From: Pelosinus fermentans JBW45 | GTDB lineage: Bacteria > Bacillota > Negativicutes > DSM-13327 | Direction of reading: 5' to 3' | Assembly: GCF_000271665.2 (NCBI RefSeq) | Contig: NZ_CP010978.1 | Location: 404,501 to 468,500, forward strand | DNA: 64,000 bases | In this document: positions 35,279 to 48,565 of the stretch, piece after piece | Position numbering within the stretch: the first letter of the stretch is position 1 | How the letters are laid out: the number at the start of each line of letters is the position of its first letter | Position numbers and translations under genes: made by a program | Notes under the pieces: model-generated | Seen by the model: the letters and a program-made list of their open reading frames with translations, nothing else | What the model was told of the DNA's origin: nothing | The model's database searches: none

Positions 35279-35526
35279 AAGTTATAAAATGTAATCACTT
35301 AAGGAGGTGATAATTTGTTCTCTACCAATCAATCATGTCAAGAAAAGAAAGTAACAATCAGAAGCCCTTCTAGTTAAGTAGCAAAGAAGTGACTTCAAAA
35401 AAATCTCATTACCTAGATTATACCAGTAATATTTGTAAAATTCTGCATTTTATTCTCGAAAAAGAGGTTCGTATTTCAGTTCCGTTACATACCATCTAAA
35501 ACTTTATAGCAAAAGGAGACAAAACC

Positions 35527-36543
35527 ATGAAAGTCATAACCCTGGATTCACCCCTCAAAATCGGTATCAAAAACATCCCCATGCCAGAACGCAAGAATGA
35601 TAGTGAAGTCCTCATTAAAGTCCGTGCCCTCGGCATTTGCGGATCAGACATTGGTGCCTATCGAGGCGTCAATCCCACGGTAAGCTACCCCCGAATCATC
35701 GGTCATGAGATCGGCGGGGAAGTGGTGTCCATTTCAGATAACAGCAAGGGAATTATCGTAGGAGACCGAGTCGTGTTAGAACCCTATCTGCCTTGCTATC
35801 AGTGCTATCCTTGCAGCATAGGCAGAACCAATTGCTGCGAACAGTTAAAAGTCTTAGGCGTGCAGACGGACGGAGGCATGGCGGAGTATGTGACCCATCC
35901 ACTCAACTTAGTACATCTAGTACCTCGTGAAATGGAATGGCAGGAGGTTGCCATGATTGAGCCGTTGACCATCGCTCTTCATGCCAATCATCGCTCCAGA
36001 GTCAAAGAAGGGGAGCATGTTCTCATCATCGGGGCGGGAGCCATTGGGCTATTAGCTGCCCAAGTTGCCATGGTATACGGAGCGGTTCCCATTCTGGTAG
36101 ATGTGGAAGAAAAACGGTTAGAACTGGCAAAAGAGATTGGAATACCCCATACTCTGCATCCCGCACAGGGAAAGGTGATCCAGGAACTCTCCGCCATTAC
36201 CAAGGGACGCATGGCAGAAGTAGTCATTGAAGCCTCGGGAGCTAAAGGAGCCATTCATGGCATGTTTGACTATGTATCTGCCGCAGGACGCATTGCCTTA
36301 GTCGGCTGGCCCAATGGAGAAACGCCGCTCCCTACTGCCGTGATTACCAAGAAAGAACTGGATATCGTCGGTTCCCGCACCAGTGCCAATGAATTCCCTG
36401 AAGCCATTGCCTTACTGCAAAACAAGCAGGTACAGGTACGTGAGATCATCACTCGCGTAGTGATCTTTGATGAGATTCCCGATGCCGTCATGAACATGGC
36501 TGGCTTCCCTGACAAGTTTGTGAAAGTGATAGCGGTGCTGTAA
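35527..36543 (+). CDS. Zinc-dependent sugar-alcohol/sugar-acid dehydrogenase (MDR family)
   Basis: A 338-residue medium-chain dehydrogenase. The catalytic zinc region is CGSDIGAY with GHEIGGEV; the structural zinc site is CYQCYPCSIGRTNCC (four Cys); the NAD(P) loop is GAGAIGLLAA. It resembles L-idonate, galactitol or sorbitol dehydrogenases. AAGGAG lies 8 bp upstream. It is the first gene of a four-gene operon with a kinase, a GntP permease and an SDR, so it probably oxidises a hexonate or polyol brought in by the permease. No regulator is included in the operon. Confidence 0.85.
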   Translation: MKVITLDSPLKIGIKNIPMPERKNDSEVLIKVRALGICGSDIGAYRGVNPTVSYPRIIGHEIGGEVVSISDNSKGIIVGDRVVLEPYLPCYQCYPCSIGRTNCCEQLKVLGVQTDGGMAEYVTHPLNLVHLVPREMEWQEVAMIEPLTIALHANHRSRVKEGEHVLIIGAGAIGLLAAQVAMVYGAVPILVDVEEKRLELAKEIGIPHTLHPAQGKVIQELSAITKGRMAEVVIEASGAKGAIHGMFDYVSAAGRIALVGWPNGETPLPTAVITKKELDIVGSRTSANEFPEAIALLQNKQVQVREIITRVVIFDEIPDAVMNMAGFPDKFVKVIAVL

Positions 36544-36572
36544 ATAAAAAACAAAAACAGGAGGTTGTAATC

Positions 36573-37628
36573 ATGAAAAAGTTTACCTTTGCCCCTGAGA
36601 AAGATATCGATGTCATTGCGGTAGGACGTATAGCCATTGATTTAAACCCCAATGAAATTCATCGTACCTTAGACAAGGTCAATACCTTTACCAAATACGT
36701 AGGCGGTTCCCCTGCCAATATTGCTGTGGGGTTAGCCCGTCTTGGCAAGAAGGTCGGCTTTATCGGTAAAGTATCTGATGATGCCTTTGGCAAGTACGTT
36801 ACCGATTACTTTATGGAAAAAGGAATTGATGTATCCCATGTTACCCCATCCTCAGGCGGAGAAGTCTTAGGTCTGACCTTTACGGAAATCTCCAGTCCTA
36901 CAGAAAGTCAGATTCTCATGTACCGGGAGGGCGTTGCCGATCTTGCCTTAGCCCCTGCAGATATTTCCGAGGATTATATTAAGCGCGCCAAATTCCTCTT
37001 AATCTCTGGAACTGCTTTGGCAGCGAGTCCTTCCAGGGAAGCCTGCTTTTTAGCCATGACCTATGCCAAGAAGCATGATACCAAGATCATCTTTGATATT
37101 GACTACCGAAACTATACTTGGAAATCGAAATCTGAGATCGCCGTATACTACTCCTTAGCAGGACAACGAAGTGATATCCTCATGGGTTCCCGGGAAGAAT
37201 TTGAACTCATGGAAATGCTGGATAAGGGCAATGACATACCTGACTACTGCCTGGCAGACAACTATCTCTTCCATGGGAATCAGATTGTCATTATCAAACA
37301 TGGGAAGAAAGGTTCCCTTGCCTATAGCAGTGATCGAAAGGCCTATAAAGTAGGTTCCTTTTCCGTAAAGCTCTTAAAATCCTTTGGTGGTGGAGATGCC
37401 TATGCTTCTGCCTTTCTCTATGGCATCTTAGAAGGCTGGCAAATGCCCACTTCTCTGGAATTCGCTACAGCCTCAGCAGCACGAGTGGTATCCAGTCATA
37501 GCTGCTCCGATGCTATGTCTACCGCCGAAGAAATTATAAGCTTTATTGCCGATAGTAATGAGAAAGGGACGGTCATCGAGGAAATTCCCTGGAACCAGTC
37601 CATCGAAGGAGGGAGATCATGCCGTTAG
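36573..37628 (+). CDS. PfkB-family sugar kinase, IolC-like
   Basis: A 351-residue ribokinase-type kinase of the 5-dehydro-2-deoxygluconokinase kind. It opens with DVIAVGRIAIDLNP. The substrate region is YVGGSPANIAVGLARLG, and FDIDYRNYTW is characteristic of IolC. The anion-hole and base region reads LKSFGGGDAYASAF, with the catalytic Asp kept. It overlaps the permease start by about ten bases. It probably phosphorylates a keto-deoxy sugar acid produced by the dehydrogenases. IolC function itself is not certain, since no other iol gene is present. Confidence 0.8.
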   Translation: MKKFTFAPEKDIDVIAVGRIAIDLNPNEIHRTLDKVNTFTKYVGGSPANIAVGLARLGKKVGFIGKVSDDAFGKYVTDYFMEKGIDVSHVTPSSGGEVLGLTFTEISSPTESQILMYREGVADLALAPADISEDYIKRAKFLLISGTALAASPSREACFLAMTYAKKHDTKIIFDIDYRNYTWKSKSEIAVYYSLAGQRSDILMGSREEFELMEMLDKGNDIPDYCLADNYLFHGNQIVIIKHGKKGSLAYSSDRKAYKVGSFSVKLLKSFGGGDAYASAFLYGILEGWQMPTSLEFATASAARVVSSHSCSDAMSTAEEIISFIADSNEKGTVIEEIPWNQSIEGGRSCR

Positions 37629-38938
37629 TCATCTTAGCCTTAGGCATTGTCCTCCTGTTTATCCTCATTATCGGTGTGAAGCTCAACAGCTTTCTCTCCT
37701 TGATTCTCGTTTCTCTGGGAGTCGGCTTAGCAGAAGGACTGCCCCTCTTAAAAGTAGTAGATTCCATTGAAAGCGGTGTGGGAGGAACCTTAGGGCATTT
37801 AGCCTTAGTCATTAGCCTTGGTTCCATGCTGGGAAAACTCATGGTAGACAGCGGGGGAGCCCAGCGTATTGCCATGCACCTCATTGATCGGTTCGGTAGG
37901 AAATATGTGAAATGGGCAGTATGCCTGACAGGCTTCATAGTAGGCATTGCCTTATTCTATGAAGTAGGCTTTGTCCTTCTCATACCCTTGGTCTTTACCA
38001 TTGCCCTATCGGCAGAAGTGCCTTTACTGGAAGTGGGCATACCCATGGCAGCCGCCTTATCCGTAACCCATTGCTTTTTGCCGCCCCATCCAGGGCCTAC
38101 GGCTATTGCGGTCATCTTTAACGCTGATCTTGGACTTACCCTGATTTATGGCTTTTTGATTGCCATACCCACGATTATTGTAGCAGGACCCTTCTTCTAT
38201 GAAACCATGAAGGATCTGAATCCTGCTGTACCACAAGGACTGCATAGCCATCAGTCTTTTAAGGAAGAGGACATGCCTAGTTTTGGGTCCAGTCTGTTTA
38301 CCACCTTGATCCCCGTATTCTTAATGGCAGCAGCCTCTCTTACTAAGTTAACTCTTCCCAAGGAATCGTATATTACCCAGTTCTTTGCCTTTGTGGGCAA
38401 TGCGGATATGGCCTTACTCATTGCTGTTCTCGTTGCCTTTTATACCTTTGGTATCAGACGGGGAAAGACCATGGCAGACATGATGGAGTCCGTGCAGCAG
38501 TCCGCCATGACCATTGCCATGATCCTCTTAGTCGTGGGGGGCGGTGGTGCCTTTAAACAGGTGCTCATTGACAGCGGCGTGGGAAAATACATTGCCTCTT
38601 TAATGGCAGGTTCCCAGCTTTCCCCCTTAGTACTGGCGTGGATGATTGCCGCCGTTCTGCGTCTTGCCGTGGGATCGGCAACAGTAGCCGCCTTAACAAC
38701 AGGAGGCATGGTACTGCCTCTCGTTGCAGCAACAGGTGTCAGTCCTGAGCTTATGGTTCTGGCTACCGGGGCAGGCAGTGTCATGGCAGGACCGCCCAAT
38801 GACCCGGGATTTTGGATGTTTAAGGAATTCTTCAATCTTTCCGTAAAAGAGACCATACGCTCCTGGTGCGTGATGGAGACCGCCATTTCCTTTATGGGGT
38901 TGGCTGGCGTACTGCTCATCCATTACGTGATCTCGTAA
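37619..38938 (+). CDS. GntP-family gluconate/sugar-acid permease
   Basis: A 439-residue integral membrane protein with about 12 hydrophobic segments. Family features: ALSVTHCFLPPHPGPTAI (about residues 140-157), GGGGAFKQVLIDSGVG (about 303-318) and the C-terminal AGPPNDPGFWMFKEF. It is a proton-coupled importer of gluconate-like acids. Its start lies inside the end of the kinase gene, with GGAGGG before it, indicating coupling. It supplies the substrate of the operon. Confidence 0.9.
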   Translation: MPLVILALGIVLLFILIIGVKLNSFLSLILVSLGVGLAEGLPLLKVVDSIESGVGGTLGHLALVISLGSMLGKLMVDSGGAQRIAMHLIDRFGRKYVKWAVCLTGFIVGIALFYEVGFVLLIPLVFTIALSAEVPLLEVGIPMAAALSVTHCFLPPHPGPTAIAVIFNADLGLTLIYGFLIAIPTIIVAGPFFYETMKDLNPAVPQGLHSHQSFKEEDMPSFGSSLFTTLIPVFLMAAASLTKLTLPKESYITQFFAFVGNADMALLIAVLVAFYTFGIRRGKTMADMMESVQQSAMTIAMILLVVGGGGAFKQVLIDSGVGKYIASLMAGSQLSPLVLAWMIAAVLRLAVGSATVAALTTGGMVLPLVAATGVSPELMVLATGAGSVMAGPPNDPGFWMFKEFFNLSVKETIRSWCVMETAISFMGLAGVLLIHYVIS

Positions 38939-39005
38939 GGGATTGGTATACAGGTTAGAAGCCGAAAAGAAAGACGATGGAACAGAACGAAAGGATGGAT
39001 GATCA

Positions 39006-39860
39006 ATGAAATTGCCATTTATGATGGATCTAACGAGTAAAGTAGCCGTTGTCACAGGAGGCGGCGGTGTGCTGGGGAGTGCCTTTGCCAAGGCCATTGC
39101 CCAATGCGGGGCAAAAGTAGCCATTGTGGATCTCAATCGTACCAGTGCCGAAGGGGTAGCGGCACAGATTCGCCGAGAAGGAGGCGTGGCCATTGCCGTA
39201 GAGGCCAATGTGCTGGTTCGTGACAGCCTGACAACGGCTCTTGTCAAAATTCATAAGGAATTAGGGCCTTGTGATATCTTGTTGAATGGAGCAGGAGGCA
39301 ATCATCCCGCAGGGACGACAACGAAAGAATATTTGTACCTTGAGGATATGGAGAAGCAGGAGAGCATTCGAACCTTTTTTGATCTGGAACGGGAGGGGGT
39401 AGAGTTCGTCTTTAACCTGAATTTCTTAGGAACCCTGCTGCCCACGCAAATTTTTACCCGGGATATGGTGGCACGCAAGCAGGGCATTGTCATCAACATT
39501 TCTTCCATGAATGCCTATACTCCCTTAACCAAGATCCCTGCCTACAGCGGGGCCAAAGCCGCAGTCAGCAATTTCACCCAATGGCTGGCAGTCCATATGT
39601 CGAAGGTGAACATTCGGGTCAATGCCATTGCCCCGGGATTCTTCTTGACGGAGCAAACCAAGGGACTATTGCAGCGTGAGGATGGTACGTTAACCGAGCG
39701 GGCCCAGAAGGTGATTTCTCAAACGCCTATGGGACGATTCGGTGAACCCCAAGAATTGATCGGGACCTTATTGTGGCTGCTCAGTGAACCCGCTTCCGGG
39801 TTTGTCAATGGAGCTGTGATTCCTGTGGATGGCGGATTTTCCGCCTATTCGGGTGTGTAG
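39006..39860 (+). CDS. SDR oxidoreductase, sugar-acid (mannonate-type) reductase
   Basis: A 284-residue short-chain dehydrogenase. The NAD(P) loop is TGGGGVLGSAFA (about 17-28); NGAGGNHPAGT (about 93-103) is typical of the fructuronate/mannonate oxidoreductase SDR group; catalytic Ser lies in INISSMNAY and YxxxK is YSGAKAA; the C-terminus is VNGAVIPVDGGFSAYSG. It follows the permease by 67 bp, with the same high-GC codon use. Together with the Zn dehydrogenase it would interconvert a hexonate pair. Confidence 0.85.
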   Translation: MKLPFMMDLTSKVAVVTGGGGVLGSAFAKAIAQCGAKVAIVDLNRTSAEGVAAQIRREGGVAIAVEANVLVRDSLTTALVKIHKELGPCDILLNGAGGNHPAGTTTKEYLYLEDMEKQESIRTFFDLEREGVEFVFNLNFLGTLLPTQIFTRDMVARKQGIVINISSMNAYTPLTKIPAYSGAKAAVSNFTQWLAVHMSKVNIRVNAIAPGFFLTEQTKGLLQREDGTLTERAQKVISQTPMGRFGEPQELIGTLLWLLSEPASGFVNGAVIPVDGGFSAYSGV

Positions 39861-39906
39861 GAATAGACTGTACAATGTAGAGAGAGTATACCCCTCATGA
39901 TAAAAG

Positions 39907-39945
39907 GAAGAAGTCCTGCAGGCAATCACTATGCAGAACTTCTTC
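39907..39945 (+). terminator. Terminator of the sugar-acid operon
   Basis: GAAGAAGTCCTGCA (39,907-39,920) pairs with TGCAGAACTTCTTC (39,932-39,945) apart from one central mismatch. Confidence 0.7.
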
Positions 39946-39965
39946 TTCATTTGTTATTCTCCAGG

Positions 39966-40028
39966 ATCTACTTATTGATAATATTCGATAATCATTTTAA
40001 CAGGAGCGTACAAAGGATTCCTCCAATG
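39966..40028 (-). pseudogene. 3' fragment of an ECF S-component gene
   Basis: It matches bases 42,779-42,843, the 3' end of the intact S-component gene, at roughly 85% (shared AATC-TTTTAACAGGAGC and TACAAAGGATTC blocks), in the same orientation. The matching next part of the gene reappears only after the Fic gene (41,211-41,273). The Fic gene therefore interrupts, or has replaced part of, an old paralogous copy. Confidence 0.75.
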
Positions 40029-40055
40029 ATAGGTAATGATTACTCATGTTTTTAA

Positions 40056-40092
40056 AACGTGGGTAATTTTTTCATATTTTTACCTACGTGAT
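40056..40092. promoter_or_regulatory. Inverted repeat upstream of the Fic gene
   Basis: ACGTGGGTAA (40,058-40,067) is matched by TTACCTACGT (about 40,079-40,088), with one internal mismatch. A third TTTACCCAT occurs at about 40,110. It lies about 55 bp before the Fic start and may be an operator. Confidence 0.45.
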
Positions 40093-40144
40093 ATTGATAT
40101 GGAAAGAATTTACCCATATAATGGGATAAAGAGGAGGCGATAAG

Positions 40145-41218
40145 ATGCATGACAATATATTAAATCTTTTACCACCGGATATTGATCTTGAAACAAAAAG
40201 GGTTTTAAAGCAACTTGCCAGATCGCATCGAGCATTGGCTGAATTGAAGGGCTATGCTGATACAATACCAAATAAAAATATTCTTATTAATGCTGTAACT
40301 ATAAATGAAGCGAAAGATAGTTCTGAAATAGAAAATATCATTACAACACATGATGAGTTATTTAAAGCTATGTCACAATCTAATTATAATAATCCTGCTG
40401 CCAAGGAGGTTGTAAATTATCGGACGGCTCTTTGGAAGGGTTATGAGCTAGTCAAGGCAAAAAAAGTCCTAACTACGAATATGATTGTTGCAATCCAACA
40501 AGACATAGAGGAAAATCGTGCCGGTATAAGAAGATTACCGGGGACGGTTTTGAAAAATCAAACAACTGGCGAAATTGTTTATACACCTCCCAGTGGTGAG
40601 CGGGAAATACTTGAACTGATGTCTAACTTGGAAAAGTATCTGAATGATGATTATGATGCGGTTGATCCACTCGTAAAATTGACCGTAATTCATTATCAAT
40701 TTGAATCGATACATCCTTTCTATGATGGCAATGGGCGAACTGGGAGAATCATTAATGTCTTATATCTAGTTCTCAAGGAACTGCTAGATAGTCCCATTCT
40801 GTATCTCAGTAAATATATAATACGAAACAAAACAGCCTACTATCAGCTATTGCAGGAAGTCAGGACCAAGGAAGGTTGGGAGGCATGGGTTCTCTTTATC
40901 TTGGATGGCATTGAACAGACAGCAGAGGAAACGCTATTACTTGTCAAAAGAATTAATGCTTTGGTGGACAAGACTGGGGAAGACATTAAGGGAGTCTTGC
41001 CACGAGTGTATTCCAAAGAGCTAGTAGAACTGCTGTTTTACGAATTTTACACTAAAACGGTTTACATTGAAAATGGTCTTAGTGTTTCTCGAAAAACAGC
41101 TGCAGGTTATTTAGCGGCTCTTGAAGATGCGGGCTTTCTTACATCACAAAAAATCGGCAAAGAACGGATATATCTCAATAAACGCTTATTTGAGGTTGTA
41201 CAAGAAGCGGGAGCTTGA
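40145..41218 (+). CDS. Fic-domain AMP-transferase with autoinhibitory motif
   Basis: A 357-residue protein. The Fic active site is complete: H190-PFYDGNGR-TGRI. The inhibitory motif (S/T)xxxE(G/N) is visible N-terminally as S59-x3-E63-N64, so this is a class II Fic protein that restrains itself. The Fic_N region (MHDNILNLLPPDIDLETKRVL) and a C-terminal winged helix (SVSRKTAAGYLAALEDAGFL) complete the usual three-part layout of the standalone class. It probably AMPylates a protein. GGAGGCG lies 6 bp before ATG 40145. The last two codons and the stop come from the ECF remnant that follows. Confidence 0.9.
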   Translation: MHDNILNLLPPDIDLETKRVLKQLARSHRALAELKGYADTIPNKNILINAVTINEAKDSSEIENIITTHDELFKAMSQSNYNNPAAKEVVNYRTALWKGYELVKAKKVLTTNMIVAIQQDIEENRAGIRRLPGTVLKNQTTGEIVYTPPSGEREILELMSNLEKYLNDDYDAVDPLVKLTVIHYQFESIHPFYDGNGRTGRIINVLYLVLKELLDSPILYLSKYIIRNKTAYYQLLQEVRTKEGWEAWVLFILDGIEQTAEETLLLVKRINALVDKTGEDIKGVLPRVYSKELVELLFYEFYTKTVYIENGLSVSRKTAAGYLAALEDAGFLTSQKIGKERIYLNKRLFEVVQEAGA

Positions 41219-41293
41219 GGCATAAAGAATCAGCATTCTGCCGATGGAAGAAAGGATGATCGCCAGCCAGCGAATAGGAGCTATGTTTCTCTT
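41211..41293 (-). pseudogene. Chimeric remnant: ECF S-component fragment joined to O-methyltransferase 5' end
   Basis: Bases 41,211-41,273 match 42,929-42,991 of the intact S-component gene with about one difference. At the shared CCAGCGA the match then switches to 46,267-46,291, near the 5' end of the methyltransferase coding region (CCAGCGAATAGGAGCT, then GTTTCTCT). In the intact locus these points are 3.3 kb apart, with the TonB receptor gene between them. The scar is thus what a microhomology deletion of the TonB gene and its flanks would leave. Confidence 0.8.
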
Positions 41294-41401
41294 TTTGGAT
41301 ATTTGATTGCAAAACAACGTATGTAAAAAAATGATTGCTTTTTTGCAAAAAAATAACTATACTCTATATTATAATAAATAACGTAAGCGTTCACGTAAGT
41401 C

Positions 41402-41442
41402 AACGCACTATTTTGCCATGTGGCAGAGAGTGCGTTTTTTTT
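41402..41442 (+). terminator. Nested hairpin with T-run upstream of the MFS gene
   Basis: AACGCACT (41,402-41,409) pairs with AGTGCGTT (41,429-41,436), an inner stem TGCCA/TGGCA sits in the loop, and eight T follow. It lies 41 bp before the MFS start, so it is either the terminator of the Fic region or an attenuator in the MFS leader. Confidence 0.7.
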
Positions 41443-41482
41443 GTACCCTCTTGCTAGGTGGTGCATAGTATAAGGGGGTCAT

Positions 41483-42670
41483 ATGTCTCAAGTATCATTA
41501 AAGCAAAGTCTCGCAAAACTTGGCTTTGCACTTTTTCTCACTTATTTATCCGTCGCGATGGCACTTCCTGTCGTTTCTGTATTCGTAATAGAAGTGCTCA
41601 AATTTCCTAACTGGCTAGGGGGGGCCGCTGTCGGTGTCTCCTTCGTTGCAACGATTCTTTCCAGAAAGCACGCGGGAAATTTTGCTGATGCAAAAAGTAG
41701 CAAAAAATGCTTTATGCTCGGCTTTTTCTTCTACATGGCTGCTGCACTTGTTTGCATGGCTGCCGCTATAAGTGGAATGAGTGCCTCAGTAGCATTCGCA
41801 ATTCTTATCGCAGGCCGACTCCTGCTCGGCATTGGAGAAAGCATGGCAACCGTCGGGCTTACAAATTGGCATTTCTCACGCCTCGGCCCAAGCCATTCTG
41901 GAAAGATACTCTCGATTTTTGGGATGGCGATGTACGGCGCATTTGCATTAGGCGGTCCTGTGGGACTTACACTCTATAAGTATTTTGGCTTTGCTTCGGT
42001 TATGCTAGCGTCATCCATTGTGCCGATTATCGGCGTTATCATGTTTCTCACCTCTCCTGAAGTTGTTCCTCATAAAACTACCGAAGCGAAAAAATCGTTT
42101 CTCAATCTTTTGGGAACAATCTGGAAGCAAGGACTTGCCGTTACGCTTCAAGGAGTCGGTTTTGCGGTTCTCGGAGCGTTTATCTTGCTTTATTTTAAAG
42201 AGCAAGGATGGCCGTATGCTGGTGTCGGTCTTTCATTATTCGGAATCGGATTTGTGATAAGTCGGATTCTTTTCGGTGCTCTACCCGATAAAATTGGAGG
42301 AGTAAAAGTCGCTCTCGTTTCGCTTATGGTTGAAACCGTTGGGCAAAGTTTACTTTGGCTTGCACCTCATTATAGTCTTGCATTGATTGGTGCTCTACTT
42401 ACGGGTCTCGGCTGTTCAATGATATACCCGGCTATGGGTGTAGAAGTTATAAAGAGGGTTAGCCCAGAACAGCGCGGCACCGCTTTCGGAGGATTCGCAA
42501 TGTTTCAGGATATTGCCTATGCCTTTTCCGCACCGATTGCGGGCGTTCTTGCCGATAATTTTAGCTATTCTTCAACCTTTCTTTTCGGGTTTATCGCTGC
42601 CGTCGTTGGTATTATCATAGTTCGTTCAATGCGCATCAACAATCTGCCAATAAAGAATACCGAGAATTAG
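41483..42670 (+). CDS. MFS transporter (YhhS/arabinose-efflux type)
   Basis: A 395-residue inner-membrane protein with 12 predicted helices. The loop 2-3 signature appears as SRKHAGNFADAKSSKK (about residues 55-70), and the repeat signature in the second half as SRILFGALPDKIGGVKVAL (about 259-277). ERGTAFGGF-like EQRGTAFGGFAMFQDI (about 330-345) is typical of the YhhS-like efflux group. AAGGGGG lies 5 bp before the ATG. The substrate is unknown; export of small solutes or drugs is the family norm. Confidence 0.8.
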   Translation: MSQVSLKQSLAKLGFALFLTYLSVAMALPVVSVFVIEVLKFPNWLGGAAVGVSFVATILSRKHAGNFADAKSSKKCFMLGFFFYMAAALVCMAAAISGMSASVAFAILIAGRLLLGIGESMATVGLTNWHFSRLGPSHSGKILSIFGMAMYGAFALGGPVGLTLYKYFGFASVMLASSIVPIIGVIMFLTSPEVVPHKTTEAKKSFLNLLGTIWKQGLAVTLQGVGFAVLGAFILLYFKEQGWPYAGVGLSLFGIGFVISRILFGALPDKIGGVKVALVSLMVETVGQSLLWLAPHYSLALIGALLTGLGCSMIYPAMGVEVIKRVSPEQRGTAFGGFAMFQDIAYAFSAPIAGVLADNFSYSSTFLFGFIAAVVGIIIVRSMRINNLPIKNTEN

Positions 42671-42684
42671 TAATCTCGGTATTC
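42655..42684 (+). terminator. Hairpin spanning the MFS stop codon
   Basis: GAATACCGAGA (42,655-42,665) pairs with TCTCGGTATTC (42,674-42,684); the stop codon lies in the loop. The REP-like palindrome follows. Confidence 0.6.
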
Positions 42685-42719
42685 CGCAAGGACTCACTAC
42701 AGAGTGCATCCTATCATAT

Positions 42720-42744
42720 GGGACAGGGACAGGTTCGTTGTCCC
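42720..42744. repeat. REP-like palindrome, lone distal copy
   Basis: GGGACAGGGACAGG followed by TTCGTTGTCCC: the same element family as in the first 21 kb, here isolated between the MFS gene and the ECF operon. Confidence 0.7.
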
Positions 42745-42780
42745 GCAAGATAGACGAGGCGATATCATAGTTAGGTCGAT

Positions 42781-43290
42781 CTATTTATTTATCGTACTTG
42801 CTAATCGTTTTAACAGGAGCATACAAAGGATTCCGCCAATGATTCCGGTGACTAGCTGCGGCCAGCTCATGAGGGCTTTTAATATAGTAGCCTGCTTCTC
42901 TGGAAGAGCAACGATGGAAAAAGCCCAGGAGCTTGAGGCATAAAGAATCAGCATTCTACCGATGGAAGAAAGGATGATCGCCAGCCAGCGATTGTAAGAT
43001 AAGGTCATATGGTAAATCAGTACATATGCCATATTGGTGAATGCCACTGGCAGAATAAAGATGGGTAAGGGTAAGGCTTGCTGAAAGAACGCTACAATGG
43101 GAGCGAGAACAGCCATTCCGAGGGCCGCTTTTGGGCCTGTGATTTCCAATGCTATCAGGAGGCATGCGTTGATGGCGCTGCCCACCACAAACATGGATAT
43201 AAAAGGCGGTACTGGGACAAGGAGTCGAAGAGACTGCAGTACAATCATTAAGGCTAAAAGTAGAGCCGTTCGCACAACTTTCTGATGCAT
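42781..43290 (-). CDS. ECF transporter S-component (cobalamin-type, inferred)
   Basis: A 169-residue membrane protein with about six helices, the size and layout of a substrate-binding S-component (VVRTALLLALMIVLQSLRL start, then the alanine- and glycine-rich helix 3). GGGAGG precedes the ATG. It is the last gene of an operon with a TonB-dependent receptor and an O-methyltransferase behind a cobalamin-type riboswitch, so a CbrT-like role in corrinoid uptake across the inner membrane is inferred. The shared ECF module is not in the window. Fragments of a paralogous copy flank the Fic gene. Confidence 0.75.
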   Translation of the reverse strand: MHQKVVRTALLLALMIVLQSLRLLVPVPPFISMFVVGSAINACLLIALEITGPKAALGMAVLAPIVAFFQQALPLPIFILPVAFTNMAYVLIYHMTLSYNRWLAIILSSIGRMLILYASSSWAFSIVALPEKQATILKALMSWPQLVTGIIGGILCMLLLKRLASTINK

Positions 43291-43349
43291 GGTTTTACCT
43301 CCCGGTCGTGTGAAAGCGTCTGCTATAGATAAAGACGCTTTTAAGTTTT

Positions 43350-45290
43350 TTATAATTTCATCGTTAAGTCTACGTGAATAAAGGCTCCAGGCAAGGATAG
43401 AGCATCGTCCTTGTGGTTGAAGATATTATCGATGCCGAGTAAGATTGTTTGGTTTTTCGTAAGCTGTTTTTCTACATTCATATTCCACAAGGTATAAGAT
43501 GTATTGGTTGATACATTTGCAGCAGGCTGGAACCAATAATGCAGATAGGAATCCACCCACAGGTTAGCAGTCAGCGTTTCTGACTGGCGATAGGAAACAC
43601 GGGAAGAGAGTTTGTGACGTGCACGGTTGTAGAGCCTAGTATTCGTCAAGTCGTTGGTAGCATCCAGATAGGTATAATTGCCGGACCAGGATAAGCGGTC
43701 GGATAGAGGTACAGAGATTTCGCCTTCGATTCCCTGAATCGTCGCACGGTTAATATTCTGGTATTTGACCGTAGCAGAGTCGACCCAAGCCTCATCGATC
43801 ATATCTGTGATTTTGCTGGTGAAGAAGGTCAGTTTGCTCTTCACGTTGCCGACATCCCGTTCAACAGACAGATCATAGGAGGTGGAGTCTTCCGGTTTTA
43901 GAGACGGATTTCCAAGGAGACTGACTAAATTTCCGTTTCTTGTGACATTCAGTTTTAGGTACAATTGATTCGGTGAAGGAACCCGGAAACCTTGTCCCGC
44001 GTTAAACTTCACGCGCCAGCCCGGTTCGGGAGTATAGGTTAAGCCGATTTTGGGACTCACATTGCTTTCAAATTTGTTGCTGTCGTCATAGCGAGCGGAT
44101 GCTACGGCAAGGAGTTTCGGGGATACAGTCCATTGGTCTTGCAGATAGACGGCAGAATAGTTGGTTTTGACTTCAGAACCTTCATAGACTTTACCATGAA
44201 ACACTTTGGTGAAGGTTCCTTGTCCTGTCTGAATTCCCGTACCGCGAAACAATTCAGGACGATATTCACCGCCTAAGGTTAGCAGGTGATCGTCGGATAC
44301 TTTTTTGCTAATACGGCCTTCCAGACCGGATATGGTGGTATAACCATAGACCGAGTTTATGTATTGCCCGCTTGTCCGGTTAACCGTGTCATTGTATTTA
44401 TTCCAAACGGAGCGGTAGGCATTGAAATAGAGTTCACCATCAGACAGGTCTTTCGTATAGCTGAGGGCATATTGACTGCGGTCGTTATTATCGCGAACAT
44501 CGGTACGAACGTTCCCCATTGCGGTTTGCAGGATTGCATATTCGCGAGTATCTTCTTCCATACGTGAGGCCGTAAAGGTAAGAGTTTCTTTGTCTGTAGG
44601 AGAGTATTCAAAGCGGGCGTTCATATTCTTTCGCTCGCCAAAAGGGGAATAGGTTGTTCCGTTACTCTTAAGGGATGCATCCGAATCAGAATAAGAGCCA
44701 GAAAGAGTCATGCCGAATTTCTCCTGTTTCCCGGAGTCATAGGTAAAGGAATAACGCCCGTTTCGGTCACCGGTACGAGCCAGAACGCCTTGATTGAGCC
44801 GCAGTGTAAAGGTTTCCTTTGATGCGGCTTTTGTAATAATATTAACCACACCGCCCAAGGCATCCGCACCGTACAGAGAAGTTACCGGTCCACGGACGAT
44901 TTCAATGCGCTCTACATTTTCCAGGGAGATTCGGTCCAGCTCATAATAGGGGTCCGGTTCTGCAGGAATTCGTTTCCCGTCGATCAAGATCATGGAATAA
45001 CGAGCGTCAAATCCTCGAATGGAAAGAGCTTCCCGTCCGTTTGCTCTCATGATGCTAACCCCAGCTGCGGAACCGATCACATCCTTTAGGATATGTGCTC
45101 CATAGGACTGGATGTCTTCCGCGGTGATCACTTCAACGGCAGCAGGAACGTCTTGAATGTTCATTGCCGTTTTCGTTGCGGTAACGACGACTTCCGGCAT
45201 CTCAAACTCATGAGAATCTGACGTTTCAGCATAGCTTTTCCCAGTGGATAGGAGTAAGGGAACGAGAAGGAGTAACAGTTTTTTATTCAC
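43350..45290 (-). CDS. TonB-dependent outer-membrane receptor
   Basis: A 646-residue protein with a GTG start (AGGAGG upstream) and a signal peptide ending near SYAE (residue 22). The TonB box region is PEVVVTATK (about 30-38). The plug domain has GVSIMRANGREALSIRGF, LIDGKR and ERIEIVRGPVTSLYGADALGG. A barrel of alternating beta strands follows, ending in VDLTMKL. Length and plug are BtuB-like. It imports a large substrate across the outer membrane, energised by TonB. Its place between an O-methyltransferase and an ECF S-component under a cobalamin-type riboswitch points to a corrinoid, while the Fur-like box leaves a metal chelate open. Confidence 0.9.
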   Translation of the reverse strand: MNKKLLLLLVPLLLSTGKSYAETSDSHEFEMPEVVVTATKTAMNIQDVPAAVEVITAEDIQSYGAHILKDVIGSAAGVSIMRANGREALSIRGFDARYSMILIDGKRIPAEPDPYYELDRISLENVERIEIVRGPVTSLYGADALGGVVNIITKAASKETFTLRLNQGVLARTGDRNGRYSFTYDSGKQEKFGMTLSGSYSDSDASLKSNGTTYSPFGERKNMNARFEYSPTDKETLTFTASRMEEDTREYAILQTAMGNVRTDVRDNNDRSQYALSYTKDLSDGELYFNAYRSVWNKYNDTVNRTSGQYINSVYGYTTISGLEGRISKKVSDDHLLTLGGEYRPELFRGTGIQTGQGTFTKVFHGKVYEGSEVKTNYSAVYLQDQWTVSPKLLAVASARYDDSNKFESNVSPKIGLTYTPEPGWRVKFNAGQGFRVPSPNQLYLKLNVTRNGNLVSLLGNPSLKPEDSTSYDLSVERDVGNVKSKLTFFTSKITDMIDEAWVDSATVKYQNINRATIQGIEGEISVPLSDRLSWSGNYTYLDATNDLTNTRLYNRARHKLSSRVSYRQSETLTANLWVDSYLHYWFQPAANVSTNTSYTLWNMNVEKQLTKNQTILLGIDNIFNHKDDALSLPGAFIHVDLTMKL

Positions 45291-45333
45291 GAAATGCCTC
45301 CTGTAATACGTTATAGAAATGTGGAAAAGTTCT

Positions 45334-46347
45334 CTACTTGGCTAGTGTATAGAATTCGCCCATTAGATTTTGGATAGCACCATCCAATGGTTTGATTTCC
45401 GTTTTCCGAAAACCTGCACTTGTAAGGGCGAGCTCAATGTTCGATCTGGTTTGTAAGATGTCAAGACCTGCAAGATGACTCGACAGCCAGCCAACAATGG
45501 ATTCTTTTGGCGATATATAGTCGTCGCTTACTCTATGGCTGACCAGATAAAGATAGCCTGAAGGGGTGAGAGCCTGTGCTATTTTCGTGGTCAGCTCTTT
45601 TAGATTTGCATTGGCAAAATCTAAGATTCCCGACGCGATAATCAGGTCGTAATTGCCACCGATGGGATCTGTCATAAAGTCGCCGCGCATGATGGATAGG
45701 CGATGTTCCAGATGCCCCTCTGCCACAAACTCTTCAGGAACATCGGCCACTCCGGGCTGTTCAAAAATGACGCCGGAAGCCAAAGGGAACTGGCGGACAA
45801 ATTCGATAGCCATCATTCCTGACCCTCCGCCAAGATCCAAAATCCGAAGGGGGGCAGTAGGCTCTACGAATTGTGCGGCAGCGCGCAAAAATGACTGAAC
45901 GCGGCCTGTACGGGCCTCTACTGCTGTTAAGCGTGCCAGCTTGCGAAAATCAAATAGCTCTTTGCCTTGATTCTGTTCTTGAATGGCTGGATCGGGTCCG
46001 AGGCGAACCAGTTCTTCCACTTGGTCGAGTCCTGTCATCTTGTTCCAGAAGGTCAGATATTCCCCTAAATAGTAAGGGCTGTTTTGACTGAGGAACAACT
46101 CTGTTTCTGGTGTATTTCGGAATTGGTGATTGTTTTTTTCCAGTAGACCGATTGCTGCCAGACTGTTCAGAAAGAGCGTAAGGTTTCTTTCATCATATCC
46201 GGTCATCGACGCGATTTTTTCTGTCGATGTATCGTGCTTTAGGTAATCAAATACCTTAAGGGAAATGCCAGCGAATAGGAGCTGCGTTTCTCTATACTGC
46301 TGCAGCATTCCAAGAAATTTTCTGGGACTATGGGTAGGATATTCCAT
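45334..46347 (-). CDS. O-methyltransferase family 2-type SAM enzyme
   Basis: A 337-residue protein from ATG 46347 (GAGGTG upstream); the longer frame to 46,386 lacks a ribosome site. It has the two-part layout of plant/fungal-type O-methyltransferases: an N-terminal winged-helix dimerisation domain (about 10-95; QLLFAGISLKVFDYL and TGYDERNLTLFLNSLAAIGLLE) and a C-terminal Rossmann domain with motif I ILDLGGGSGMMAIE. The terminal FRKTEIKPLDG is also typical. It heads the riboswitch-controlled operon. It could modify a corrinoid, porphyrin or chelator that the operon imports (inference). Confidence 0.8.
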   Translation of the reverse strand: MEYPTHSPRKFLGMLQQYRETQLLFAGISLKVFDYLKHDTSTEKIASMTGYDERNLTLFLNSLAAIGLLEKNNHQFRNTPETELFLSQNSPYYLGEYLTFWNKMTGLDQVEELVRLGPDPAIQEQNQGKELFDFRKLARLTAVEARTGRVQSFLRAAAQFVEPTAPLRILDLGGGSGMMAIEFVRQFPLASGVIFEQPGVADVPEEFVAEGHLEHRLSIMRGDFMTDPIGGNYDLIIASGILDFANANLKELTTKIAQALTPSGYLYLVSHRVSDDYISPKESIVGWLSSHLAGLDILQTRSNIELALTSAGFRKTEIKPLDGAIQNLMGEFYTLAK

Positions 46348-46397
46348 CGTAAACACCTCTTTCAAATTTGTTTGTATGCCTGGCATACAAATTGGTT

Positions 46398-46500
46398 AAA
46401 AAAAACAGCTTCTACCAAGCCGGGAAAAAATGAAATAAAGACCGCGCCGGTATTTCACCGGACTTCCCTATTAAGCCCCTAAGGGCACCTATCTCAACAG
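46398..46500 (-). ncRNA. Cobalamin-type riboswitch
   Basis: Read on the minus strand, the leader has GGTGCCC (46,489-46,483), then GGGGCTTAATAGGGAAG and the hairpin CCGG-TGAAATA-CCGG (46,461-46,447), followed by CGCGGTC. This is the conserved core of the cobalamin riboswitch family. The usual CCCGC-ACTGT segment after it is missing, so it is a shortened or variant class. The leader ends with CCCGGCTTGGTAGAAGCTG and a run of eight U, a possible terminator platform. It would switch off the methyltransferase/TonB/ECF operon when corrinoid is plentiful. Confidence 0.8.
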
Positions 46501-46502
46501 TA

Positions 46503-46517
46503 TGAAATTCATTCTCA
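46503..46517. promoter_or_regulatory. Fur-like box upstream of the riboswitch
   Basis: TGAAATTCATTCTCA; on the minus strand TGAGAAT-G-AATTTCA, which matches about 11 of 14 positions of the 7-1-7 Fur consensus. It lies just upstream of the riboswitch core. It may add iron control to the operon. Confidence 0.4.
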
Positions 46518-46634
46518 TCGTAGCAAATAATAATACGTTTGTCAACGAGATGTTATGATATAGATCATGATCTTTTCTATAATTTGGCAGCGGTAACAGT
46601 TGTTATAGTTACTGAATTTCGATACAATAAGGTC

Positions 46635-47084
46635 ATGAAGAAAAAATCTTATAGAGCGATGAGTAAGTTTATGCGGTTGATTGAAACAATTGCTAACAGC
46701 AAAATGAAACAGTTGGATTTTGGTGATGGTATCGTTCTATATCGAGGTGAGATTCACATGATTAGGGCGATCGGCGATCATCCAGGCATGTTTATTTCTG
46801 AAATAGCACGATATTTTGGTGTTACCCGGGCAGTTGTTTCGAAAAGTGTTTTGAAGATCGAAAAGAGCGGCTATGTGCGCAAAGTGATAGATCCTTTAGA
46901 TAAGAAGCGTGTTCAAGTTTACCTGACAGAGCGGGGAGAGGCCGCATATCAGGCTCATAACGCATTTCACTTGGAGAAAGACGATTATATTTTTGCGCAT
47001 TTGGAGGGCTTGAGTGCAAAAGAATTAGAAGCAGTCAGTGTGTTTTTAGACAAAGCACAGCAGATGATCGATCATCATTTTTGA
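46635..47084 (+). CDS. MarR-family regulator
   Basis: A 149-residue protein from ATG 46635 (AAGG upstream), preferred over a start at 46,539. The winged helix is MFISEIARYFGVTRAVVSKSVLKIEKSGYV (about 55-85, seen as two helices), with the wing DPLDKKRVQVYLTERG. The C-terminal helix carries a His-rich end (IDHHF), which could bind metal. It is divergent from the methyltransferase/TonB operon and may regulate it. Its stop region overlaps a possible upstream start of the next gene. Confidence 0.85.
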   Translation: MKKKSYRAMSKFMRLIETIANSKMKQLDFGDGIVLYRGEIHMIRAIGDHPGMFISEIARYFGVTRAVVSKSVLKIEKSGYVRKVIDPLDKKRVQVYLTERGEAAYQAHNAFHLEKDDYIFAHLEGLSAKELEAVSVFLDKAQQMIDHHF

Positions 47085-47131
47085 ATAAGAGTTGCCCTCA
47101 TCCTAAGGGGAACGTCTGGAAGGAGGCCGAT

Positions 47132-48565
47132 ATGAAGCAGATTGAACTCATTTCATTGCCATTTCATTCTGAACCGAAACCACAAAAAAGAGCCAGTGCA
47201 AAACCTGCTATTGAAAGGGAAGAACGAGGCAAGGAAGAAATCACCCCACCAAGCATACCGCAGGTTGATATTCTCGATCTTCGCAAACATCCTATAACCT
47301 ATACGGCTCATCAAGAAACAGCCCTCAAGGAAATCGCTTCTTTCTTATGCAGCAGTCAGGAATCGGTATATATCCTTTCCGGTTATGCCGGGACTGGCAA
47401 AACGACCATTGCTGAAAACATCGTCAAATATGGACTGGCTCTAGGCAAGGAGTGCATCATTACAGCCCCTACCAACCAAGCCGTCAAGGTGCTAAAGGAC
47501 AAATTCGGAGAAATCAAGGTTCTTTTTAAAACCCTTCACTCTACCTTGTATGGTTCTCCTGATGCTGATACTGGTGAATGGATAGCCAGTGTCAAGTTTA
47601 AAGCTTACCATGTCATTCTCGTTGACGAATCCTCCATGATCAGTAAAACCGTCTACGCCGATCTCATCAAGGAGGTTCAGTCTGCCCATGCAAAGGTCAT
47701 CTTCTTCGGGGACAGCTTCCAACTAGAACCCGTGGGCGATGACCCGGAGATATTGCGCAACCAAAATTTTGAACTCACCGAAGTGAAACGGCAGGGAGCC
47801 GACAGTGAAATTCTGCTTTACGCAACCTGCCTCAGAAATCTAAAGCAAGTCGTCATTCCCAATGCGTCCCGAGGAGAAGTACAGATATTAGGAAAGCAAG
47901 CTACTGCCAGAGCTTTTCTCCAGTCCGTCATTCATAATGAAAACAGCATCTTCATCATTGGCACCAACAAGGCAAGGCTTATCCTCAATCAAAAAGCCCG
48001 TGAGGTCAAATTCGGCAAAGAGATAACGGATGAACCACAAGAGGGGGATCGAATCCTCTTTATCGGCAATGGTACCTATTTCGTCAATGGCGATAAAATG
48101 ACTTTGGAGCAAGTCACCATCATTACAGAGAAGGTTCTTCCCATCAAAGGGACTTCCAAAGATTCTCCCAGCTTTGTTCGGGCTTATCTCATTATGAACT
48201 ATAATCACAAGATTCTTCTCCTGCCCGCCATAGAGAAGTCTTCTGTTTACCATGCGCAATTTCTGGAGGTCAATCAGCATTTTCCTGATGACTGGTACAA
48301 TAAAAACCCTATTACCTACAAATTTGAACTGTCCAAAGAGGTGTCCATTGCAACCTACGGCTACGTCATCACTGCCCACAAAAGCCAAGGCAGCCAATGG
48401 GAAAAAGTCTTTGTCCACCAAGATGCGTTTAGGAGTAACCCCCGCTGGCTTTATACCGCAGCCACCCGGGCAGAAAAAGAGCTTACGCTGACCATGGAAT
48501 CAAGCCCCTGCAAATGGACCTGGGATCAGATCATGAAAGCAGCAAATCATGCCTACAAGGAATGA
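47132..48565 (+). CDS. RecD-like/UvrD_C_2 DNA helicase
   Basis: A 477-residue protein starting at ATG 47132 (GGAGG 7 bp upstream). Motifs: Walker A GYAGTGKTT (84-92), motif Ia TAPTNQAVKVL, Walker B ILVDESSM, motif III FFGDSFQLEPV, and the UvrD_C_2 end with YVITAHKSQGSQWEKVFV and WLYTAATRAEKELTL. It resembles the helicase part of RecD2 or Dda-like enzymes, without the N-terminal RecD domains. It probably is an ATP-driven 5'-3' DNA helicase. It stands alone; a hairpin terminator follows its stop. Confidence 0.85.
   Translation: MKQIELISLPFHSEPKPQKRASAKPAIEREERGKEEITPPSIPQVDILDLRKHPITYTAHQETALKEIASFLCSSQESVYILSGYAGTGKTTIAENIVKYGLALGKECIITAPTNQAVKVLKDKFGEIKVLFKTLHSTLYGSPDADTGEWIASVKFKAYHVILVDESSMISKTVYADLIKEVQSAHAKVIFFGDSFQLEPVGDDPEILRNQNFELTEVKRQGADSEILLYATCLRNLKQVVIPNASRGEVQILGKQATARAFLQSVIHNENSIFIIGTNKARLILNQKAREVKFGKEITDEPQEGDRILFIGNGTYFVNGDKMTLEQVTIITEKVLPIKGTSKDSPSFVRAYLIMNYNHKILLLPAIEKSSVYHAQFLEVNQHFPDDWYNKNPITYKFELSKEVSIATYGYVITAHKSQGSQWEKVFVHQDAFRSNPRWLYTAATRAEKELTLTMESSPCKWTWDQIMKAANHAYKE

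Follow-up and report, generated by a model that had tools for sequence, protein, structure and literature searches.

We analyzed a stretch of 64,000 nucleotides (the window) from the chromosome of the soil bacterium Pelosinus fermentans JBW45, in which an intact Fic gene is flanked by fragments of a nearby operon. The locus was compared with those of five congeners: G001 (5.0 Mb, two contigs), G002 (P. fermentans isolate UBA6563), G003 (P. propionicus DSM 13327), G005 (Pelosinus sp. L_E1_T20_C_bin.69), and G007 (an uncultured Pelosinus), of which G002, G005, and G007 are metagenome-assembled genomes and the G005 contig is just 4.3 kb long. The following features are present (window positions, strand):

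39903-39964, no strand assigned: terminator-like hairpin (GAAGAAGTCCTGCA...TGCAGAACTTCTTC) and spacer, on the outer side of relic A; 98-99% identical in G001 and G005
39965-40030, minus: relic A, an ECF S-component 3' end including the stop codon; 56/66 identical to 42778-42843
40029-40144, plus: 5' unit of the Fic cassette, comprising the ATAGGTAA end, a hairpin, operator-like TTACYCAYGT repeats, and a TTGATA-17-TATAAT promoter
40145-41218, plus: intact SoFic-like Fic gene, 357 amino acids, with Fic_N, Fic (HPFYDGNGR), and SoFic-like_C domains
41210-41218, no strand assigned: GGAGCTTGA, junction homology between the Fic 3' end and the ECF interior, containing the native Fic stop; read from the sequences of the JBW45, G002, G005, and G001 loci
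41210-41273, minus: relic R, an interior ECF fragment from the second, partial operon copy; 63/64 identical to 42928-42991
41267-41293, minus: methyltransferase 5' scrap, fused to relic R at CCAGCGA (41267-41273); the G001 junction has the scrap too
41483-42670, plus: MFS transporter gene, separating the relics from the intact operon in JBW45 and G001
42781-43290, minus: intact ECF S-component gene (copy C); orthologues 93-100% identical in five congeners
43350-45290, minus: TonB-dependent receptor gene, not represented in the relic
45334-46386, minus: O-methyltransferase gene, source of the scrap

The intact ECF-TonB-methyltransferase operon is of the vitamin-uptake type. Preceding it on the minus strand, at 46387-46507, is a sub-threshold match to the cobalamin riboswitch (E 0.0076), which scores 23.1 bits where 31.5 are required and tentatively points to cobamide-related uptake or modification as the role of the operon; at gathering scores, Rfam gave no match in the whole window. 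A leader (CGTAAGCGTTCACGTNAGYCAACGCACT...AGTGCGT followed by a T-run) stands before MFS genes at three loci (window 41378-41441; L085 and L086), and the window copy likewise has no Rfam match at gathering score. Intergenic GGGACA...TGTCCC repeats occur at 42720-42745 and also at L033 and L031. In G002, a short ORF with a helix-turn-helix-like end lies by such repeats and abuts the truncated Fic gene of that genome; it has no Pfam match.

The Fic protein scores above the gathering thresholds of Pfam PF13784, PF02661, and PF21248 and matches the PADLOC SoFic model with an E value of 1.3e-115. Because its score against the NCBIfam SoFic equivalog NF046030 (407.3 bits) is under the curated cut-off of 550, we call it SoFic-like. 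The translation contains the catalytic motif HPFx(D/E)GN(G/K)R as HPFYDGNGR and the inhibitory motif (S/T)xxxE(G/N) as SSEIEN. Homologues were found in 14 of the 380 genomes of the class at the cut-off used, scattered patchily across the Negativicutes, and relatives 79-92% identical occur in distant families. The three domains, the HPFxDGNGR and SSEIEN-type motifs, and the patchiness are all shared with the anti-phage Fic protein Sofic/SoFic of Shewanella and Escherichia coli (PMC12249575). Judging from its sequence, the JBW45 gene is probably a phage-defense gene. While a 47-amino-acid antitoxin, AS1, lies downstream of E. coli Sofic (PMC12249575), the JBW45 Fic family has neither a conserved downstream gene nor an AS1-type small gene: the downstream sequences of relatives are mostly unrelated, and homology stops at or just past the Fic stop.

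Upstream of nearly all class-level Fic homologues, a 5' unit of ~115 bp, starting near TATAGGTAA, can be aligned, and the sequences outside it are mostly unrelated. The stem of its hairpin measures ~14 bp (by eye), its promoter is of consensus type, and each unit carries three to five TTACYCAYGT-type sites. Operator-type repeats are also found upstream of many phylum-level homologues (65-81% identity), with similar repeats kept in several of the promoters. In some of these homologues, changes in the letters of the repeats are concerted (TTGCACACGTT, TTGCCTATAT; by eye), which is the behavior of an operator read by a coevolving regulator. Since Fic is the sole protein of the cassette, the likely reading is autoregulation, in which the winged-helix C-terminus of Fic would act on this putative operator.

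Around this cassette, three pieces of the operon were compared directly with the intact genes, the yardstick being the top value reached when the operon was shuffled 300 times with dinucleotides preserved. Relic A reached 56/66 identities (shuffle best, 39) and relic R 63/64 (34), while the methyltransferase scrap, a weak point because of its shortness (27 bp), reached 25/27 between 41266-41292 and 46267-46293 (19). An earlier sequence-only reading of this DNA, which had named such a comparison as a check, correctly placed ECF fragments on both sides of Fic and a switch of the right fragment, at CCAGCGA, to the 5' region of the methyltransferase gene. It had estimated the ECF stretch missing between the fragments at about 75 bp; it measures 84 bp (42844-42927). 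The CCAGCGA motif is found at 41267-41273, 42985-42991, and 46268-46274. Its presence at the junction points to a co-linear copy from which ~3.3 kb, including the TonB gene, was removed (an ECF-to-methyltransferase deletion of ~3,283 bp, assuming co-linearity), in support of the ~3-kb loss proposed earlier.

No further copies of A, R, or the scrap pieces were found in the 5.38-Mb genome (5,380,816 bases, a single contig), and the two other ECF relatives that it encodes show a protein identity of only 46-51%. Local short repeats do exist, but we found nothing else to recommend chance similarity or an assembly artifact: the matches lie far beyond the 300 shuffles, G001 and G005 have pieces in common with JBW45, and the JBW45 chromosome was finished with PacBio (PMC4582584). 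Such an explanation is extremely improbable.

On JBW45 alone, the simplest account is the one first proposed, namely, a single paralogous operon copy with Fic inserted into its ECF gene at a loss of ~75-84 bp and with 3 kb deleted downstream, and all the pieces do lie in order and in direct orientation. Against it stands a great gap in divergence between the two fragments, A being 85% and R 98% identical to the intact gene. The G005 locus, which is 98.1% identical to JBW45 over 39903-41218 (hairpin, A, and Fic), reads A, Fic, ~48-49 bp of other sequence, ECF copy B, YkuD, and intact ECF. Copy B matches 42758-42978 with frameshifting differences and occupies the same relative place as R. It starts beyond the ECF stop codon and spans the full extent of A, giving this locus three ECF 3' ends. 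Because copy B carries a whole ECF 3' end, the right-hand piece overlaps A, and the two never adjoined one another, contrary to the view that Fic had split one ECF gene into A and R. In the interval from Fic to the intact ECF gene of G005, and left of Fic elsewhere, no trace of TonB or methyltransferase sequence was found.

In G002, the 3' half of Fic is followed by a ~50-bp spacer, the same as that of G005, and then by an intact single ECF operon, with no relic between; unrelated sequence takes the place of the Fic 5' half. Fic thus lies near an intact single operon, so its adjacency probably preceded the ruin on its right side, and the idea that Fic settled in existing ruins is not supported. 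The Fic genes of G002 and G005 end in GGAGCTTGA followed by AACGG, while that of JBW45 runs on into the ECF interior. Since the two relatives share the nine bases and then differ, the Fic stop (41216-41218, inside the 9-bp GGAGCTTGA) is native rather than donated by the ECF fragment, as had been thought, and the nine bases, common to both parents, are junction homology. Contradicted by G005 provided that its contig is correct, the single-copy account is improbable. What survives of the proposed paralogous operon is a second, partial copy beside the intact one, collapsed via CCAGCGA.

A sister allele without Fic, also suggested earlier as an informative comparison, is present in the closer sister G001, where the left flank through 39976 is joined via TG directly to GAATAGGAGCTATG, the methyltransferase scrap (~41273), followed by the MFS gene and the operon. 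The first 12-13 bp of A are retained. Other sites of G001 and G003 harbor MFS paralogues sharing a stretch corresponding to ~41326 to 42663, and no methyltransferase words were found upstream of them, which argues that the scrap did not arrive with the MFS module. Left of the site (35.5-39.9 kb), JBW45 and G001 are mostly 88-96% identical, and for 2 kb to its right the figure is 99-100% (window 35301-48130, L030). This shift at the Fic site indicates that DNA exchange between lineages has touched the place, and it appears to be a sign of a recent exchange of the MFS-ECF segment.

Such exchange would also fit a scenario in which G001 represents the ancestral empty state and JBW45 acquired a patch of A, Fic, and R by recombination with DNA of a G005-like relative. 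We consider this unlikely: the initial 12-13 bp of A persist in G001, and in JBW45 the GAATAGG is preceded by CCAGC, as in the intact methyltransferase gene, which under this scenario would be due to chance, at odds of about 1 in 1,000. The absence of Fic from G001 is most simply a later loss, and the least improbable route to this allele is that an ancestor resembling JBW45 underwent a secondary deletion. The right breakpoint of G001 lies within a few bases of the ECF/methyltransferase junction of JBW45, which no model predicts.

The origin of A bears on a further alternative. G003 and G007 have no Fic beside ECF and one ECF end each, with a hairpin at the equivalent place 3' of the ECF gene, at about equal distance. 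The sequence similarity of the hairpin beside A to these post-ECF terminators is not significant (p 0.01-0.4), so the reading of A as a displaced native end is a positional one only. Alternatively, an independent and older tandem copy of the operon, predating Fic, may have ended in A, with Fic landing between the copies. The divergence of A, which exceeds that of B, R, or C and, at 15%, also that of ECF genes between most sister species, and the three ECF ends of G005 are in keeping with this. Two findings speak against it: in no genome does the interval from A to Fic show a trace of TonB or methyltransferase sequence, and the Fic-less G003 and G007 have single ECF ends. We regard an older copy as a possibility, albeit a rather doubtful one.

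The history that we find reasonably probable is the arrival of a Fic cassette beside the operon end, accompanied by A, followed by a later partial operon copy and its decay through short homologies. The three pieces, the homologies at the junctions, the separateness of copy B, the native stop, and the Fic-less allele of G001 are directly observed; both the order of these events and the displacement of A by the arrival of Fic are inferred. A self-contained SoFic-like cassette (promoter/operator, 357-codon gene, and its own stop) would have landed at the 3' end of the ECF operon, facing the operon, in a lineage ancestral to several Pelosinus species, leaving on its far side, by the terminator-like hairpin, a 66-bp duplicate of the ECF 3' end (A). 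A partial second operon copy, reaching from the ECF end to at least the methyltransferase 5' region, would later have arisen in the interval from Fic to the intact operon, alongside a cargo gene that is MFS in JBW45 and G001 and YkuD in G005. Two short-homology deletions would then have joined the Fic end to the ECF interior at GGAGCTTGA, removing the spacer and the ECF 3' end, and ECF to methyltransferase at CCAGCGA, removing ~3.3 kb. The partial copy would have decayed independently in each lineage, and G001 probably lost Fic and most relics later. By sequence comparison, the scraps thus appear to be the product of at least two separate duplications and subsequent short-repeat deletions.

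Cassettes in other genomes also adjoin copies of gene ends. In G299 and G088, a partial tRNA-Val copy lies directly 3' of Fic, and the complete tRNA-Val is located 1.4-3.2 kb upstream. The sequence after Fic in G093 comprises 206 bp from the 3' end of an upstream gene, and in G305 and G276 it is a ~200-bp tail that terminates in a tRNA 3' end, a phage-integrase fragment lying nearby in G305. SoFic-like cassettes or remnants were observed against tRNA 3'-end copies at L101, L156, L100, and L103, the phage-integrase fragment being at L101 9000-9269. Among remnants, some promoter-only and some internally deleted, the 5' unit is joined to a tail and tRNA end in G299 contig 29 (L156) and to the last Fic codons in G084 (L144), while in G001 52 bp of it stand alone beside an hsp20 gene (L084:5629-5678); the shortest remnant matches, of the hairpin only, may be ordinary terminators. 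These cases suggest frequent gain and loss of the Fic cassette, partly on tRNA-targeting elements.

As with integrative elements that target the 3' ends of tRNAs and other genes and duplicate that end on their far side, relatives of the cassette adjoin tRNA 3'-end copies, and A resembles a displaced gene end. Unlike in those elements, the Pelosinus target is a protein gene, and Fic is antisense to it; in JBW45, the interval from A to the operon contains no integrase gene. The ECF 3' end repeated in A could have been left either by an integrative element or by an older operon copy. The post-stop spacer of Pelosinus showed only a marginal match to the tails of other cassettes (G305, p 0.02), and when the G093 cassette was compared with the empty site of its congener G091, the left flank aligned and the right flank did not. 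Downstream duplicates were seen for 5 of 12 Fic genes versus 10 of 131 other ORFs, a descriptive count in which several control hits mirror Fic-flank duplications and two of the Fic hits, L105 and L108, are no gene-end relics, being a paralogous gene and a local repeat. It is only tentatively, and with doubt outweighing confidence, that we extend the picture to the Negativicutes, where SoFic-like genes would travel as compact cassettes of a fixed 5' operator/promoter unit plus the gene, arrive with a duplicate of a neighboring gene 3' end (tRNA or protein), be lost frequently through short homologies, leave promoter-only scars, and regulate themselves through the winged-helix C-terminus.

The rearrangement is real, largely explained, and of a known and fairly ordinary kind, documented by an unusually good range of states in sister genomes. 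Like other deletions between 7- to 9-bp homologies in bacterial chromosomes, those at CCAGCGA and GGAGCTTGA kept one copy at each junction; the single oddity is a stop codon kept in frame at one of them. The locus provides a base-level record of a single-gene, defense-type cassette entering, persisting beside, and being lost from a metabolic operon, with four sister genomes in different states. The interest beyond the ordinary is in the cassette and its operator. The operator array kept upstream of the Fic family allows a direct test of self-repression by the winged-helix domain, and if Fic represses its own gene, this would explain how a toxic AMPylase is restrained without a separate antitoxin gene.
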